From: Candidatus Bathyarchaeota archaeon
Lineage (GTDB): Archaea > Thermoproteota > Bathyarchaeia > Bathyarchaeales > Bathyarchaeaceae
NCBI GenBank assembly: GCA_020356305.1
Contig: CP070636.1
Location: forward strand, 632,447 to 637,998
Length of the DNA stretch: 5,552 nucleotides
Direction: 5' to 3'
Below the pieces are notes generated by a model. The model did no database searches and had not been told where the DNA came from. It saw only the letters and a list, made by a program, of their open reading frames with translations. The position numbers and the translations under genes are program-made. Position 1 is the stretch's first letter. Each line of letters starts with the position of its first letter. This document shows, piece by piece, positions 830 to 5,552 of the stretch.

Positions 830-1933
830 TCATCCTAGTCGTCCTATAGCTTTTCCTCGAATTGTTTTTCTAAAGGCACTGCTTTCCTCCATCAGCCTTT
901 TCTTATTGTCAGAATTTATAATTTCAACTTGGGGAAGATTTTTGGGATATAATTCGAGCATGCGTTTTTGTAAAGCAGGAGCGACGCGAAGACGCTCCAA
1001 CGTGGGATAGCTCCATTCTTCAACGAACCTAGCCACATGAGTCTTGTCAAACTTGGCGAAGGCATCAGCTAGAATCGAGGTGATGATCGCGTTGCTGGAA
1101 AGAACGGCGACTTCAGCCTCTCGCACCGCGTAGCGGTTGCCGTTAAAAGAAACTGTTAATCCTCCGTTTTCTCTCACTAGCCGAAATGGTTCAACGTCTG
1201 TGATGCTGTCCCCCACATACATGACATCAGGAAAACGGCTCCCAGTTTTTTTTACAATATCCTCAACAGCGCGTGCTTTTTCATAGCCGCCAACAGGATT
1301 AACCTCTTCTAACATTTTGCCAGATTCCATTTCCGCCATTTCCTTCCAAAATATTTCGCCTAGTCTTCTAAGGGTCTTCTGGTCTCGTGTTGAAAAATCG
1401 TTGGCTGATACAGCGCTCTCAGGAATCTCTATCATAGGCATAGTGGCTATTTCTTCTCTGACTTGTCTTAGCCGTTCAACTTCTTCGTTGGCGACCTCAT
1501 ATTTGTCTATATCCAGTTTGGTGCAGTAGACGTTTTCACACGGAAAATTTACCACAATGCACAATGCGTGTATGTACTGTTCATAGCTGGTGCTCACAAT
1601 GAAAGAGGGCATTAGGCTGCTGACAAAACGCAGCGTATTTCCAGCGCTAGGTATCAATAAAATATGTTCTGCAGAGAATTCCCTTATGTTTTCGTTAGTT
1701 GCCCCGTACGCTTTGAGAAAGGGCAGTATCAGCTTTAGGGTGTCTCCGGCCTTGTATCCGGGTCTTTTGATGATGTCTGCTTGGACGTCATCGTACTTGC
1801 TCACTAGAGCAAAGAAAGAGTTTCCGTCTGGGATGAAGTGTTCTGTGAGCTCATAGGCGTTGTCGTTTTTTGAGATTGGACCTTCACAGTCGGAGATGAA
1901 AATCTTCCTCTTTTTAACCCTCCTCCTCTTCAC
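830..1933 (-). CDS. HAD-superfamily phosphatase, archaeal EhaR-like
   Basis: Predicted cytoplasmic HAD hydrolase of 367 residues; substrate unknown. Motif I is FISDCEGP (12-19) with the nucleophile at Asp15. Position +2 is Glu where classical phosphatases have Asp. Motif II is FIVSTS (111-116), the likely motif III lysine is Lys219 in GGYEKARAV, and motif IV is YVGDSITDVEPF (239-250) with Asp242 and Asp246 for Mg2+. Residues 20-90, including the stretch YKAGDTLKLILPFLKAYGAT, form a family-specific insert and cap. From memory this matches the archaeal HAD group annotated as energy-converting hydrogenase A subunit R (EhaR), but no hydrogenase genes are visible. The start is GTG, overlapping the purD stop by 4 bp (GTGA), with GAGGAG 6 nt upstream; no other start precedes motif I. 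The N-terminus is very basic (MKRRRVKKRK). HAD membership is firm; EhaR orthology is probable. Confidence 0.85.
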   Translation of the reverse strand: MKRRRVKKRKIFISDCEGPISKNDNAYELTEHFIPDGNSFFALVSKYDDVQADIIKRPGYKAGDTLKLILPFLKAYGATNENIREFSAEHILLIPSAGNTLRFVSSLMPSFIVSTSYEQYIHALCIVVNFPCENVYCTKLDIDKYEVANEEVERLRQVREEIATMPMIEIPESAVSANDFSTRDQKTLRRLGEIFWKEMAEMESGKMLEEVNPVGGYEKARAVEDIVKKTGSRFPDVMYVGDSITDVEPFRLVRENGGLTVSFNGNRYAVREAEVAVLSSNAIITSILADAFAKFDKTHVARFVEEWSYPTLERLRVAPALQKRMLELYPKNLPQVEIINSDNKKRLMEESSAFRKTIRGKAIGRLG

Positions 1934-3345
1934 TCCTGTCTCCTCAGTCGCTTCATGTGTCTCACGCTTTTTTCAATGTGCTCTCTCGAGGCAATGTCAG
2001 TTCTAAACCACAGTGATCCACCTTTGATGGCTTTGATCCCCTCCAACGAAATTTCTCTCGCTGTCTCCATCTCTTCGCCGATGCCTACTACGCATACTGT
2101 TCTGGAGCCCAGCGCGTAGGTTCGGCTATCGTCTCCTCGTTCCATTGAGCCTGGATAGACTCTGATCTTATCTCCATGTTTCTCGGTCAATCTGTACGCA
2201 ATGTTCAGATCTACCGGTCTATCGGCATCTGCTGAATCTACACGTTCAGGAAAGACGTTCTGGAATCCGCCGTAGTTTGGAGGCGCCTTGTAGGTTACAA
2301 CTGTTGCTCTTTTTTCAAACTCGACTCGCGTTAGGTTTCCGTCAAGTATCTTGAAGCACACATCCACAAAATCGTCCTTCAATATTGGCAAGAGATTCAG
2401 TATCTCCGGATCGCCCGGCCTACTGTTGTTTTCCAGAATCTTTAGCCCTCTCCCTGTATGTATAAACGCATCGTAGAAAGGAATACCGCGCAATTCTGGG
2501 TTGCTACCTCTACCTCTCAACCTTTTAAAGATTCTATTTACAATCTGAACCTCTCTCTCTTTGTCATACGATGCCATGAACGGTAGCCAATCTCCCACAT
2601 CTTTGTAGGAGCCCATTCCACCAGTGTTAGGTCCTTTATCCCCATCAAACGCTCTCTTGTAATCACGTGTCTCTGGCAACGGAACCAAGTGCTTTCCGTC
2701 ACAGAATGCTTGGAAGCTGGATTCTTCTCCTTCAATCTTTTCTTCTACTATCACCGGACCGTGCTCATAATTGGACAGAAAGTGCTCGAACAGCTCTTCA
2801 CGAGTTTTGAAGTGGTCACCCCATACTCCTACGCCTTTTCCTGCGGCTGGATGGTCTGGTTTTACAGCGACCTGATTGTTGAGGCTATCTAACCATGGGT
2901 TAATGTCCTTCTTCACTTCGCTCATGGTGCCGTAGTCTTTTGGGTCGAATACTCTGAAACTTGGATTCACTTCTGGTGTAACTTTCTGAAAGAGGCGCCT
3001 TTGTGCGACCTTGCTTCCTTCGATAGCATACTTTCGGGTTGGACATATCACAGGTATACCTGTTTTCTTCTCAACAATATCCCTGATACCGTTGATTATT
3101 GGTTTCTCGGGACCCACAATTCCGAAATCTATCTTTTCCTTGTGCTTCTCTGCAAATTTGCATATCTCGTCCACATCGAGATCGGAAATGAGGGCATGCG
3201 CCTTTGCTTTTTCCGCGTTGAAGGGGTTCCTTTGCTTGTCTGCAACGTACATTCTAACCGAATAGTTTTGGCTGCGACTGAGGGCGTCCACCATGGAGAC
3301 TCCCCTCGAAACGTAGCAGACAAGTAGAACGCCCACTCTTTCCAT
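1930..3345 (-). CDS. purD: Phosphoribosylamine--glycine ligase (GAR synthetase, PurD)
   Basis: PurD joins glycine to phosphoribosylamine using ATP, the second step of purine synthesis. Counting from ATG 3345 the protein has 471 residues, slightly longer than the usual ~430. Visible landmarks are VGPEKPIINGI (77-87), the ATP-grasp loop KPDHPAAGKGVGVWGD (162-177), VEEKIEGEESSFQAF (200-214), the PurD signature DGDKGPNTGGMGSY (234-247), the metal-site stretch LENNSRPGDPE (304-314) and the C-terminal FRTDIASREH (447-456). The N-terminal Gly-rich GSGGREHA motif of ordinary PurD is missing; VLLVCYVSRGVSMVDAL stands there instead. A GTG at 3354 would add three residues, but GGTGG (3351-3355) sits 5 nt before ATG 3345, so I prefer ATG. 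The gene lies directly after purF and overlaps the HAD gene. Function is near certain from the central motifs; the N-domain is divergent. Confidence 0.93.
   Translation of the reverse strand: MERVGVLLVCYVSRGVSMVDALSRSQNYSVRMYVADKQRNPFNAEKAKAHALISDLDVDEICKFAEKHKEKIDFGIVGPEKPIINGIRDIVEKKTGIPVICPTRKYAIEGSKVAQRRLFQKVTPEVNPSFRVFDPKDYGTMSEVKKDINPWLDSLNNQVAVKPDHPAAGKGVGVWGDHFKTREELFEHFLSNYEHGPVIVEEKIEGEESSFQAFCDGKHLVPLPETRDYKRAFDGDKGPNTGGMGSYKDVGDWLPFMASYDKEREVQIVNRIFKRLRGRGSNPELRGIPFYDAFIHTGRGLKILENNSRPGDPEILNLLPILKDDFVDVCFKILDGNLTRVEFEKRATVVTYKAPPNYGGFQNVFPERVDSADADRPVDLNIAYRLTEKHGDKIRVYPGSMERGDDSRTYALGSRTVCVVGIGEEMETAREISLEGIKAIKGGSLWFRTDIASREHIEKSVRHMKRLRRQE
1940..1945 (-). promoter_or_regulatory. 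Ribosome binding site of the HAD gene
   Basis: Minus-strand GAGGAG sits 6 nt before GTG 1933, inside the last codons of purD. It decides the GTG start and suggests direct initiation at the 4-bp overlap as well as possible translational coupling. Confidence 0.65.
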
Positions 3346-3350
3346 TCCAG

Positions 3351-3355
3351 CCACC
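3351..3355 (-). promoter_or_regulatory. Probable ribosome binding site of purD
   Basis: Minus-strand GGTGG lies 5 nt before ATG 3345 and overlaps the alternative GTG start at 3354. The region before that GTG (TTTTTCGACG) has no SD-like bases, so this site favours the ATG. Confidence 0.45.
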
Positions 3356-3371: not shown

Positions 3372-4001
3372 CTAATCACCTGTTTCGTATATTCTTCCGG
3401 TTTCTTTAAACCCTTTCTCGAATTTTTCCTTCATCTCATCTGCCATCTTTTGAGCAAGAGGAGTGGGGTATTTCCCTGTGACGCATGCAAGACACAGGTC
3501 CTCTTTCTTCATGCCTGTGGCTCGGACAAAATCATCGAGCAACTGATAGTTCACAGTGTCTGCCTTTATTTTTTTGGCAATTTCGTCAGGGCCATATCGG
3601 GAGCCTATCAGCTGTCTGTAAGTTGCCATGTCAATTCCGTAGAAGCAAGGATTCACTATTCTTGGAAACGTAACGAACACGTGAACCTTCTTTGCTCCCA
3701 ATTTGCGCAGTTTTTCTATGATCACCTTGGTGGTATCTCCTCTCACGATACTGTCCTCAACCACAGCAATGCTCTTTCCGTGGATTTTGCGGTCTAGAAC
3801 GTTGATTTTTCTGTCTATGGTGTTGTATCGTTCTCGTTGCAACAAGATGAACGCTCGTTCGGTCACGTATCTGTGTCTCCTTGAAGCCCGTTCCCATCTC
3901 ACACCAGTCTCTTCGTGAAGCCCATATGCAGGATCATTGCCGGTTTCCGGTATTCCCATGACTATATCCACTTTTCTTGCGATGTCAGAGTATTCCTTTC
4001 C
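3372..4001 (-). CDS. purF: PurF phosphoribosyltransferase half (downstream of the internal TAG)
   Basis: This is the type I phosphoribosyltransferase domain, 209 residues after the TAG. Numbered as in the full frame, the PRPP loop is VVEDSIVRGDTT (365-376; family VDDSIVRGTT). It is followed by FPRIVNPCFYGIDM (397-410), KADTVNYQLLDDF (432-444) and CLACVTGKYPT (455-465). It ends at TAG 3372-3374, where PurF proteins normally end. If translated alone, the first possible starts are GTG 3971 and ATG 3959, neither with a convincing SD. A GTG 3971 start would drop the first 10 codons after the stop (GKEYSDIARK), which still look like PurF. This argues that the piece was inherited as part of one protein, not as an evolved split subunit. 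Confidence 0.88.
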   Translation of the reverse strand, partial: GKEYSDIARKVDIVMGIPETGNDPAYGLHEETGVRWERASRRHRYVTERAFILLQRERYNTIDRKINVLDRKIHGKSIAVVEDSIVRGDTTKVIIEKLRKLGAKKVHVFVTFPRIVNPCFYGIDMATYRQLIGSRYGPDEIAKKIKADTVNYQLLDDFVRATGMKKEDLCLACVTGKYPTPLAQKMADEMKEKFEKGFKETGRIYETGD

Positions 4002-4856
4002 CTAATTTCTTCCAAAATCCTCTCTTACCTCATAGACGTGTTTTTCTCCCAGCATCGAATCCGGTCTAGAGAAGTAAGCAAACTCAAAGCTGCAGAGCGC
4101 CTTTCTGTCACATCTAAGGAGCTGCTCTCGCGCAAAACCATCTTTCGAGGCGATTACAAGTTCTCCCGGCTTCATTTCAAAGCCGTGTTCGAAGCCGCCA
4201 ATGTCTAAACCCACAGTTTCAGAAGATACAGCGTATGTATTTCGGTCTTCGCTGTAGCCGCAAGAGAGCGGTCTTATGCCACATGGATCCTTGAAGGCGA
4301 AGAGCTCCCCGTTTTTGGTCATTGCTGCTATGGAGAAGGCGCCTTCTATTTCTTTCATACATGTTCTAACCGAAGAGGCGAGATCGCCACTCTTCATTTC
4401 CATAAAGAGCTTTTTGCAGATCAGGTCTGCGTCACATTCGTGACAAAAATCTGGGAATTTTCTCCTGAGCTCTTTTCTTAACTGAGAATTGTTAACAATG
4501 TTGCCATTGAATGATATTGCGACTCCTTTTTTTTCTGACTGGACAAATAGTGGCTGGGCGCCTCTCACCAGTGATTGTTCGTCTGTTCTGCCAGAGGTTG
4601 TATATCGTATGTGCCCTATGCCTACATCCCCCGGTAATTTCTTGAGCCATCCTTGAATTTCTTCATTTTTTATCTTTGGAACTAGGTCTAAATCTCTATG
4701 CACATGGAACATTCCGTCAAACGTTAGAAAACCGTGGGACTGGTGACCACGGTGGTTCTGGGCTCTCAGTCCCCAGTAGACGTATGGAAAAATCTCTGTG
4801 TGTTTGAAATCCTGCACTCCGAAAACGCCGCAGGCTTCTTTCACATGTGTTAACAT
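3372..4856 (-). CDS. purF: Amidophosphoribosyltransferase (PurF), full-length frame interrupted by one in-frame TAG
   Basis: PurF makes phosphoribosylamine from PRPP and glutamine, the committed step of purine synthesis. From ATG 4856 to the terminal TAG at 3372 there are 494 codons in one frame, a normal PurF length, with a single internal TAG at codon 285 (4002-4004). Sequence on both sides aligns with the family without gap or shift: ...VYEVREDFGRN, then TAG, then GKEYSDIARKVDIVMG. Relatives have roughly GRELAKEYP here, so the stop stands where Leu is common; TTG to TAG is one base. No frameshift is needed. The product may be two fragments, a full protein by readthrough, or nothing functional. 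The operon around it looks intact and all active-site motifs are kept, which argues against old decay. I cannot exclude a base-call error. Confidence 0.9.
4002..4004 (-). other. In-frame amber (TAG) codon inside purF
   Basis: Reading the minus strand: GGA AGA AAT TAG GGA AAG GAA TAC. The frame before and after is the same (4002-4004 stop, next codon 3999-4001). It lies in the segment between the glutaminase and PRTase domains, at a position where family members often have Leu. Candidate explanations are point mutation, base-call error or amber decoding; the sequence alone does not choose. Confidence 0.95.
4002..4856 (-). CDS. purF: PurF glutaminase half (upstream of the internal TAG)
   Basis: This part has 284 residues from ATG 4856. 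It is an N-terminal-nucleophile (class II) glutamine amidotransferase domain that hydrolyses glutamine to ammonia. The catalytic Cys9 lies in EACGVFG; eight residues precede it, fitting a short propeptide that must be removed to expose the cysteine as in Bacillus-type PurF. Other motifs are NHRGHQSHG (34-42), GHIRYTTSG (81-89, Arg84), FNGNIVNN (117-124, oxyanion Asn-Gly), CDADL (141-145), KDPCGIRPL (189-197) and EFAYFSRPDS (258-267). GTG 4913 and ATG 4877 are in-frame alternative starts, but only ATG 4856 has a TATA-like box at the right distance, and it gives the most usual propeptide length. Without the second half this piece could still hydrolyse glutamine but could not make phosphoribosylamine. 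Confidence 0.9.
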   Translation of the reverse strand: MLTHVKEACGVFGVQDFKHTEIFPYVYWGLRAQNHRGHQSHGFLTFDGMFHVHRDLDLVPKIKNEEIQGWLKKLPGDVGIGHIRYTTSGRTDEQSLVRGAQPLFVQSEKKGVAISFNGNIVNNSQLRKELRRKFPDFCHECDADLICKKLFMEMKSGDLASSVRTCMKEIEGAFSIAAMTKNGELFAFKDPCGIRPLSCGYSEDRNTYAVSSETVGLDIGGFEHGFEMKPGELVIASKDGFAREQLLRCDRKALCSFEFAYFSRPDSMLGEKHVYEVREDFGRN

Positions 4857-4878
4857 AAACTTAGAGATATAAGGCATA

Positions 4879-4886
4879 TTATTTAT
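4879..4886 (-). promoter_or_regulatory. TATA-like box of purF operon (leaderless start at 4856)
   Basis: Minus-strand ATAAATAA is centred about 26-27 nt upstream of ATG 4856, the spacing expected between an archaeal TATA box and its transcription start. It is preceded by the A-rich AAAAAACC, compatible with a BRE. No SD precedes ATG 4856, so the mRNA is probably leaderless. A second weaker candidate, GTTATATGA at 4931-4939, would start a transcript near 4910 with a leader of about 50 nt. Confidence 0.5.
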
Positions 4887-5000
4887 GGTTTTTTGACAAA
4901 AACTTGCATTCACACAAGTATTGTCTTAATTCATATAACTGCATATAGTGTAGAAAATAAGCTTAAAACGGAATTGCAATCTGAAACGGATAACAGAAAA

Positions 5001-5226: not shown

Positions 5227-5341
5227 TGTTCGATGCCAAAAATTTTTATTACTCAGGGTGGGGATGGCTTTTTACTCCCATAGACCAGGCTTCCCAGTTT
5301 TTTGGGCGTTTCATCAAGCCATTTTGTTCCTTTCCTGAGGG

Positions 5342-5363
5342 ACACCAGCCGTTAGCTGGATGT
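5342..5363 (-). terminator. Hairpin directly after the MttB-family stop codon, possible transcript end
   Basis: The minus strand reads ACAT CCAGC TAACG GCTGG TGT. CCAGC/GCTGG form a 5-bp stem, extended by ACA/TGT around a bulged T. It begins one base after the TAA. No U-run follows immediately; the nearest is TTTTT at about 5240-5246, which archaeal termination could use. It may be a 3'-end stabilising hairpin instead. Confidence 0.3.
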
Positions 5364-5552
5364 TTACGTGAGTTCTTTGTCGGCTTCTTTCACGATCGCG
5401 CGAATCTCCTTCGCAATGTCCTTGTCCAATGGCTCAGGCTTGTGGTGCGCCAAGATATGGTCAACCTTCTCACAGGCCTTCTTGAAGAGGTCCTTCCACC
5501 CCTTCTTCTCCCAGTCGGCCCTCCAATCTCTGGTAAAGAGCTCCGGGATCCA
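5364..5552 (-). CDS. MttB-family corrinoid methyltransferase, C-terminal 62 residues only
   Basis: Only the end of the gene is in the window: 62 codons read from the right edge to TAA 5364-5366. The peptide contains FTRDWRADWEKKGWKDLF (6-23), then ACEKVDHILAHHKPEPLDKD (26-45) and a helical tail EIRAIVKEADKEL. The pattern LF.R..Y..W...G..D...KA.EKV..IL..HKPEPL...I..EI..I..EA is the C-terminus I know from the trimethylamine/glycine-betaine methyltransferase family (MttB, MtgB). These enzymes pass a methyl group from a quaternary or tertiary amine to a corrinoid protein. Members either carry pyrrolysine, encoded by an internal TAG (MttB), or lack it (MtgB-like). The deciding region and the active site lie outside the window, so substrate and type cannot be told. 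It is codirectional with purF but separated by a long gap. Confidence 0.8.
   Translation of the reverse strand, partial: WIPELFTRDWRADWEKKGWKDLFKKACEKVDHILAHHKPEPLDKDIAKEIRAIVKEADKELT

Follow-up and report, generated by a model that had tools for sequence, protein, structure and literature searches.

An in-frame amber codon interrupts the purF gene of the window, the whole stretch of 5,552 nucleotides of bathyarchaeial DNA analysed here, and raises the question of whether it is decoded as pyrrolysine (Pyl), records a nonsense mutation, or is a base error. The earlier note had put forward these three candidates. A nonsense mutation or a base error fits best; with no TAG at this position in the relatives compared, it is not a conserved Pyl site.

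The interrupted purF and its relatives

The window contains the following features:

5364..5552, minus strand: tail of mttB, a Pyl-type trimethylamine methyltransferase gene (last 62 codons and a TAA stop; TIGR02369 match)
5249..5342, minus strand: structured RNA located 3' of mttB, beginning 21 nt past the stop
3372..4856, minus strand: purF, 494 codons and a TAG stop at 3372-3374, with a single interruption
4002..4004, minus strand: in-frame TAG in purF, codon 285 from the ATG at 4854-4856
1930..3354, minus strand: purD, intact, downstream of purF
830-1933: HAD-like gene, downstream of purD
From 805, cut off by the window end: ftr, downstream of the HAD-like gene

The amber is codon 304 if the minus-strand frame 3375-4913 is numbered from 4913. 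Apart from the TAG at 4002-4004, this frame contains no stop between a point ahead of the probable ATG and the terminator, and no frameshift is seen in purF. Read through, it yields a 494-residue protein that aligns over its full length with bathyarchaeial PurF. Glutaminase-domain models match the N-terminal part, the GATase matches stopping at residue 234 of the frame, short of the TAG, and both parts of P0002, a 95%-identical protein, align with solved PurF structures. Values of dN/dS before and after the TAG are 0.12 and 0.14 against L001 (genome G001), 0.15 and 0.11 against L034 (G061), and 0.11 and 0.11 against L033 (G044); being averages over a long divergence, they leave a recent loss of function invisible. 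With one lesion and dN/dS of 0.11-0.15 on both sides, purF displays neither the several lesions nor the lost constraint of a pseudogene, although a recent pseudogene would escape this comparison. The frame, the full-length alignment and the constraint on both sides thus uphold the earlier description of one TAG, without frameshift, in an otherwise intact purF. Downstream, where an intact operon had been noted, the visible parts of purD, the HAD-like gene and ftr are free of frameshifts and stops. The earlier note did not mention that purF's own terminator is also a TAG. Directly 3' of the internal UAG, no stem-loop stands out when the fold is compared with shuffles (z +1.69), and the same test at the UAG of a G061 mttB is likewise negative (z +0.70).

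The residue found at the amber position in relatives is hydrophobic throughout. It is Leu in 16 of 19 genome loci and Ile in the other three. Among the 120 listed of 1371 protein matches, it is Leu in 95 and Phe in 24, and one protein (P0018) ends before the position. P0002, which is 95% identical over the N-terminal query, and the B. subtilis PurF have Leu too. TAG, which a programmed Pyl site would conserve among orthologues, occurs in none of the 19 loci and in none of the 119 listed proteins that reach the site. By this comparison, the purF TAG is not a conserved Pyl site. At this position L001 and L034 carry TTG, L033 carries CTT, and L002, L003, L004 and L035 carry CTG, as read in seven loci, four further ones having been left out because they were not parsed. 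Of the three closest relatives having a DNA sequence, two therefore use TTG; their purF is 83% (G001), 79% (G061) and 78% (G044) identical to that of the window. The earlier note had stated that the position usually holds a hydrophobic residue such as Leu, with TTG one base away from TAG. Polarisation of the differences between the window and P0002 assigns 11 to the window (including the TAG), six to P0002, and leaves one unpolarised.

Other interruptions of purF have been encountered. P0018, from a JGI contig of 9483 bases, matches the window PurF at 99% identity for about 200 residues and departs from the frame at residue 201, ahead of the amber site; comparison with the window DNA suggests a 5-base loss. 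This lies elsewhere in the gene, and a near-identical strain thus has a different purF break. Of the 256 genomes in the bathyarchaeial class of G001, at least 199 yield a purF match. Ten of the matches listed, read alongside three further loci, were flagged for TAG: eight carry it only at one end or the other of the frame, one (G195) is not resolved, and one, L182 of G252, has an internal TAG together with a broken N-terminal half. No PylS above cut-off is found in G252. Stray ambers in assembled purF can hence arise without a Pyl system, and an internal amber is by itself no evidence of decoding.

Probable pyrrolysine capacity and the two meanings of UAG

The mttB tail offers the first link to Pyl. 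It matches TIGR02369 with a score below the whole-protein cut-off, as a fragment should, and its Pyl codon position falls outside the window. In the seven proteins that match it best (three in G061, one in G044, three in G216), an in-frame TAG invariably lies ~100 residues upstream. The eighth, another G061 copy, is 88% identical to the tail over 34 residues, and its TAG site lies in an assembly gap. Identity reaches 87-90% with TAG-containing copies in G044 and G061, and 82-90% at the DNA level over the coding tail with five copies (four in G061, one in G044); it is at most 53% with copies devoid of TAG, and 48% with the TAG copy of G210. By these alignments, the window mttB tail belongs with the TAG-containing group. 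G001 likewise has an mttB-family gene directly ahead of purF and on its strand (L001:3-1166); it is a non-TAG paralogue, 43% identical to the window tail. No tRNA-Pyl is found in the window, either by ARAGORN or by comparison with the G061 tRNA-Pyl. Rfam returns a single chance match in the mttB-purF region, far under the gathering score.

PylS (TIGR02367) exceeds the cut-off in three of the 256 class genomes, G061, G210 and G216; weaker matches in 220 genomes and in most control genomes originate from other synthetases. In G061, PylSn, PylSc and PylB adjoin, PylC is located elsewhere, and no PylD above cut-off is found (with 15,200 N in the contig). Directly ahead of pylSn, a segment bearing a CTA anticodon can be aligned with the tRNA-Pyl called by ARAGORN in G210 and G216; on the G061 locus itself (L021) ARAGORN calls no tRNA, and Rfam gives no match around this pylT. 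G216 possesses PylS and PylD, with no PylC match. G001 and G044, of 0.8 and 1.0 Mb and probably incomplete assemblies, have no PylS above cut-off, and G044 carries a TAG-mttB nonetheless. In G210, TAG occurs in mtmB, in two mtbB and in mttB, and in G216 at least seven mttB copies have a visible in-frame TAG, several more being cut by assembly gaps. Other mttB-family matches are interrupted differently: G061:C1:518515-519927 has one in-frame TGA (selenocysteine, decay or error), and G142:C146:6182-7588 has two TAG, decay or error being among the readings. Pyl genes have also been described in Bathyarchaeia in passages of PMC9723677. Taken together, the window's lineage is very probably Pyl-using; for the window's own genome, we infer the presence of Pyl genes from its relatives and from the mttB tail. 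The amber decoding considered in the earlier note therefore gains a setting from the Pyl-type mttB tail and from the G061 Pyl genes. A designed Pyl site has against it the examined relatives without TAG, the frequent use of UAG as a stop, also at the end of purF, and the lack both of a prominent stem-loop past the codon and of a match near purF to the RNA element that accompanies TAG-mttB genes.

A Pyl code that reads every TAG as sense leaves no TAG as a stop. The lineage does not behave in this way. Taking the TAG at 3372-3374 as sense would extend the purF frame over the start of purD, and in G061 TAG ends 320 of 1202 non-overlapping ORFs of at least 150 residues (27%). Genome fragments of other members use it too, in 8 of 36 cases in G216, 7 of 15 in G210, and 11 of 35 in G044. 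Adjacent in-frame segments split by one stop show no TAG excess in G061 (38 TAG, 50 TAA, 34 TGA); among the 38 TAG-split pairs, one clear read-through gene, mttB, was recognised by eye, in what is a low-power test. Gene content and ORF ends point to a double meaning of UAG in the lineage. According to passages of PMC2933860, archaea with pyl genes use UAG both as sense and as stop. In Sifarchaeia, UAG represents 21% of the stops and occurs together with Pyl genes, and how Pyl is kept out of ordinary UAG stops in such archaea is stated to be unknown (PMC9723677, in part).

Accounts of the purF amber

Tentatively, and at a little less than even chances, we favour a real and recent accident: a one-base change of a conserved Leu codon to TAG in one strain of a Pyl-using lineage, leaky in its effect. 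Most ribosomes would then stop at the UAG and release a 284-residue fragment containing the glutaminase domain, and a minority may instead decode it with the Pyl-tRNA presumed for this organism, putting Pyl where Leu stood; this balance between stopping and read-through is a prediction. It is the probable presence of this tRNA that would make the mutation leaky and not null. The absence of TAG from all the loci and listed proteins that reach the site, the Leu of P0002, the constraint on both halves, the use of TAG as a common stop, the lack of a TAG excess among the split frames of G061 and the Pyl capacity of the lineage argue for such a change. The different break of P0018 fits a relaxed need for purF, or errors. 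Against a recent change, the TAG is the sole lesion and every motif is preserved, as would equally be predicted by a base error or a tolerated Pyl; the window-specific excess over P0002 (11 against 6) is small; and no PylS above cut-off is found in G001 and G044, the closest relatives besides G061, both small and probably incomplete.

A base or assembly error, with Leu as the true codon and purF intact, is rather unlikely, albeit a serious contender. The TAG is one base from the TTG of close relatives, the assembled purF of G252 has an internal amber along with other breaks, and P0018 is a purF record of this species broken in another way. However, ftr, the HAD-like gene, purD and the rest of purF show no frameshift or stop, and the contig of the window measures ~1.68 Mb, as given in the entry of its protein P0122, so the assembly is not obviously poor.

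Unlikely, and more so than an error, is a UAG decoded well enough to give a working full-length PurF, as a tolerated accident of the two-meaning code. The very probable Pyl capacity of the lineage, the otherwise intact gene and its two constrained halves are in keeping with it. Passages of PMC2933860 report that an introduced amber is read through at 20-30% in M. acetivorans, and describe the natural case of Thg1 (see below). The site itself speaks against it: Leu is conserved as far as B. subtilis, only Leu, Ile and Phe occupy the position among the loci and listed proteins, and the long Pyl side chain may be harmful at such a conserved hydrophobic site. Furthermore, no relative has TAG there, and the RNA element found next to mttB is absent near purF.

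Fission of the gene, with the glutaminase and the phosphoribosyltransferase made as separate chains, is highly improbable: the GATase matches do end ahead of the TAG, and GTG and ATG codons just 3' of it open an ORF of 195-199 residues across the transferase core, but no accompanying change surrounds the break and the aligned relatives (19 loci and the listed proteins) are continuous across it.

Across the relatives compared, the purF amber is thus strain- or lineage-specific; as a Pyl site it is not conserved, nor is it marked. It is best accounted for by a base error or by a recent mutation that is at most leaky, and an efficient Pyl insertion is possible, with the capacity of the lineage as its backing. 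Efficient reading of the amber would give the organism a purine enzyme with Pyl in a conserved hydrophobic position; otherwise, the amber would be a plain nonsense mutation or an error.

An RNA element 3' of mttB and comparison with known systems

A covarying element of 95 nt, with a kink-turn-like loop, resides in the 3' flank of the Pyl-type mttB. The first ~135 nt past the window mttB stop are 74-83% identical to the G061 copies, compared with 82-90% in the coding tail, beyond which flank identity falls to 35-39%, and the same flank is 81% identical to that of G044 over 47 nt. A model built from five sequences (R1), used with strict filters, finds matches in two of the 256 class genomes, G061 (four) and G216 (eight), which are two of the three PylS-bearing ones. 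A second model (R2), with laxer filters and E up to 1, yields 17 matches, four in G061 and 13 in G216, the scores of most G216 copies not being independent as these copies were used in building it. An mttB lies upstream of 15 of the 17. It has a visible in-frame TAG in ten cases (L194, L196, L197, L199, L200, L201, L202, L218, L219 and L221), that is, in all ten element-linked mttB with a readable site; in five others (L195, L198, L203, L205 and L220) the TAG site of the mttB tail falls in an assembly gap. No mttB precedes the remaining two, L204, which follows an assembly gap, and L222, the weakest match (E 0.0017). Other element loci recorded are L172, L173, L174, L175, L177, L178 and L179. 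Among the mttB segments of G061, the element accompanies three of three with a visible TAG and none of the 16 without, and a scan of the whole G061 contig with E up to 5 detects the four copies only. Of 51 loci retrieved, for the most part further mttB and mtmB/mtbB genes, only the window and a cut-off start in G044 match. No match is found in the purF vicinity, in the Pyl-using G210, or in 398 genomes of the phylum, the last being weak evidence since no known positive was detected in that sample.

In a 15-sequence alignment, 18 of 28 pairs show compensatory change, in 63 cells against 20.9 (sd 3.7) in shuffled and at most 20 in slid controls, the alignment being fitted to the model's own structure, which favours covariation, and the shuffles ignoring relatedness. 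RNAalifold on a 9-sequence alignment finds compensatory change in 12 of 25 pairs. Of 200 shuffles, 199 fold less well than the window copy (z -2.80). By inspection, a 5' GAUGA and a 3' GA flanking helix 4 look like a kink-turn; the window copy has A in place of the 3' G, which makes its loop less canonical.

Two functions were considered and rejected. A riboswitch for the next gene, as a general reading, is at odds with the next long ORF being convergent in three of the four G061 copies. That Pyl use in general requires the element is contradicted by G210, where TAG is present in four methyltransferase genes without a match. A third is that the element is the Pyl counterpart of SECIS, a 3' mark by which the UAG of its own mRNA would be read as Pyl while other UAGs stop. 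We hold this to be quite doubtful. At present, shared ancestry of the TAG-mttB copies accounts for the association at least equally well; the scans turned up no element beside an unrelated TAG gene. If the SECIS-like function holds, the unmarked purF amber of the same window would be a natural negative control that terminates. The element hints at a testable idea, of putative function, for how the two meanings of UAG may be separated. Titles and abstract beginnings of the papers listed in the open-licence PMC, on PYLIS or kink-turns, structured RNA at mttB, and Pyl in Bathyarchaeia, mention no mttB 3' element.

Several known systems can be compared with this locus. In Thg1 of Methanosarcina acetivorans, an accidental in-frame amber has been described for which Pyl was physically observed (Heinemann 2009, via passages of PMC2933860). 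The purF amber resembles it in being a lone amber, in frame and peculiar to one lineage, within the gene of an ordinary enzyme in an archaeon that uses Pyl, and differs in being known from sequence alone and in occupying a conserved hydrophobic site. With regard to the Pyl-containing MttB (TIGR02369), the window tail groups with the TAG copies, its Pyl codon lying beyond the window. As in Sifarchaeia, Pyl genes coexist with a common UAG stop (21% there, 27% of the long G061 ORFs); unlike here, the Sifarchaeia passages of PMC9723677 describe no 3' element. 

The mttB element is, like PYLIS and SECIS, a structured RNA tied to recoded genes. The stem-loop PYLIS, located right after the UAG, has been reported as dispensable, and eukaryotic SECIS elements occupy a 3' position. 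The mttB element sits past the stop of its gene, in contrast to PYLIS, and shares with eukaryotic SECIS the 3' position and a kink-turn-like loop, the SECIS kink-turn being documented in passages of PMC9499178. Unlike SECIS, it is tied to UAG genes and is absent from the Pyl-using G210. In the window, the end of a Pyl-type gene and a conserved covarying RNA adjoin the gene of a central enzyme whose amber is unmarked, and this juxtaposition makes the separation of the UAG meanings a testable question.
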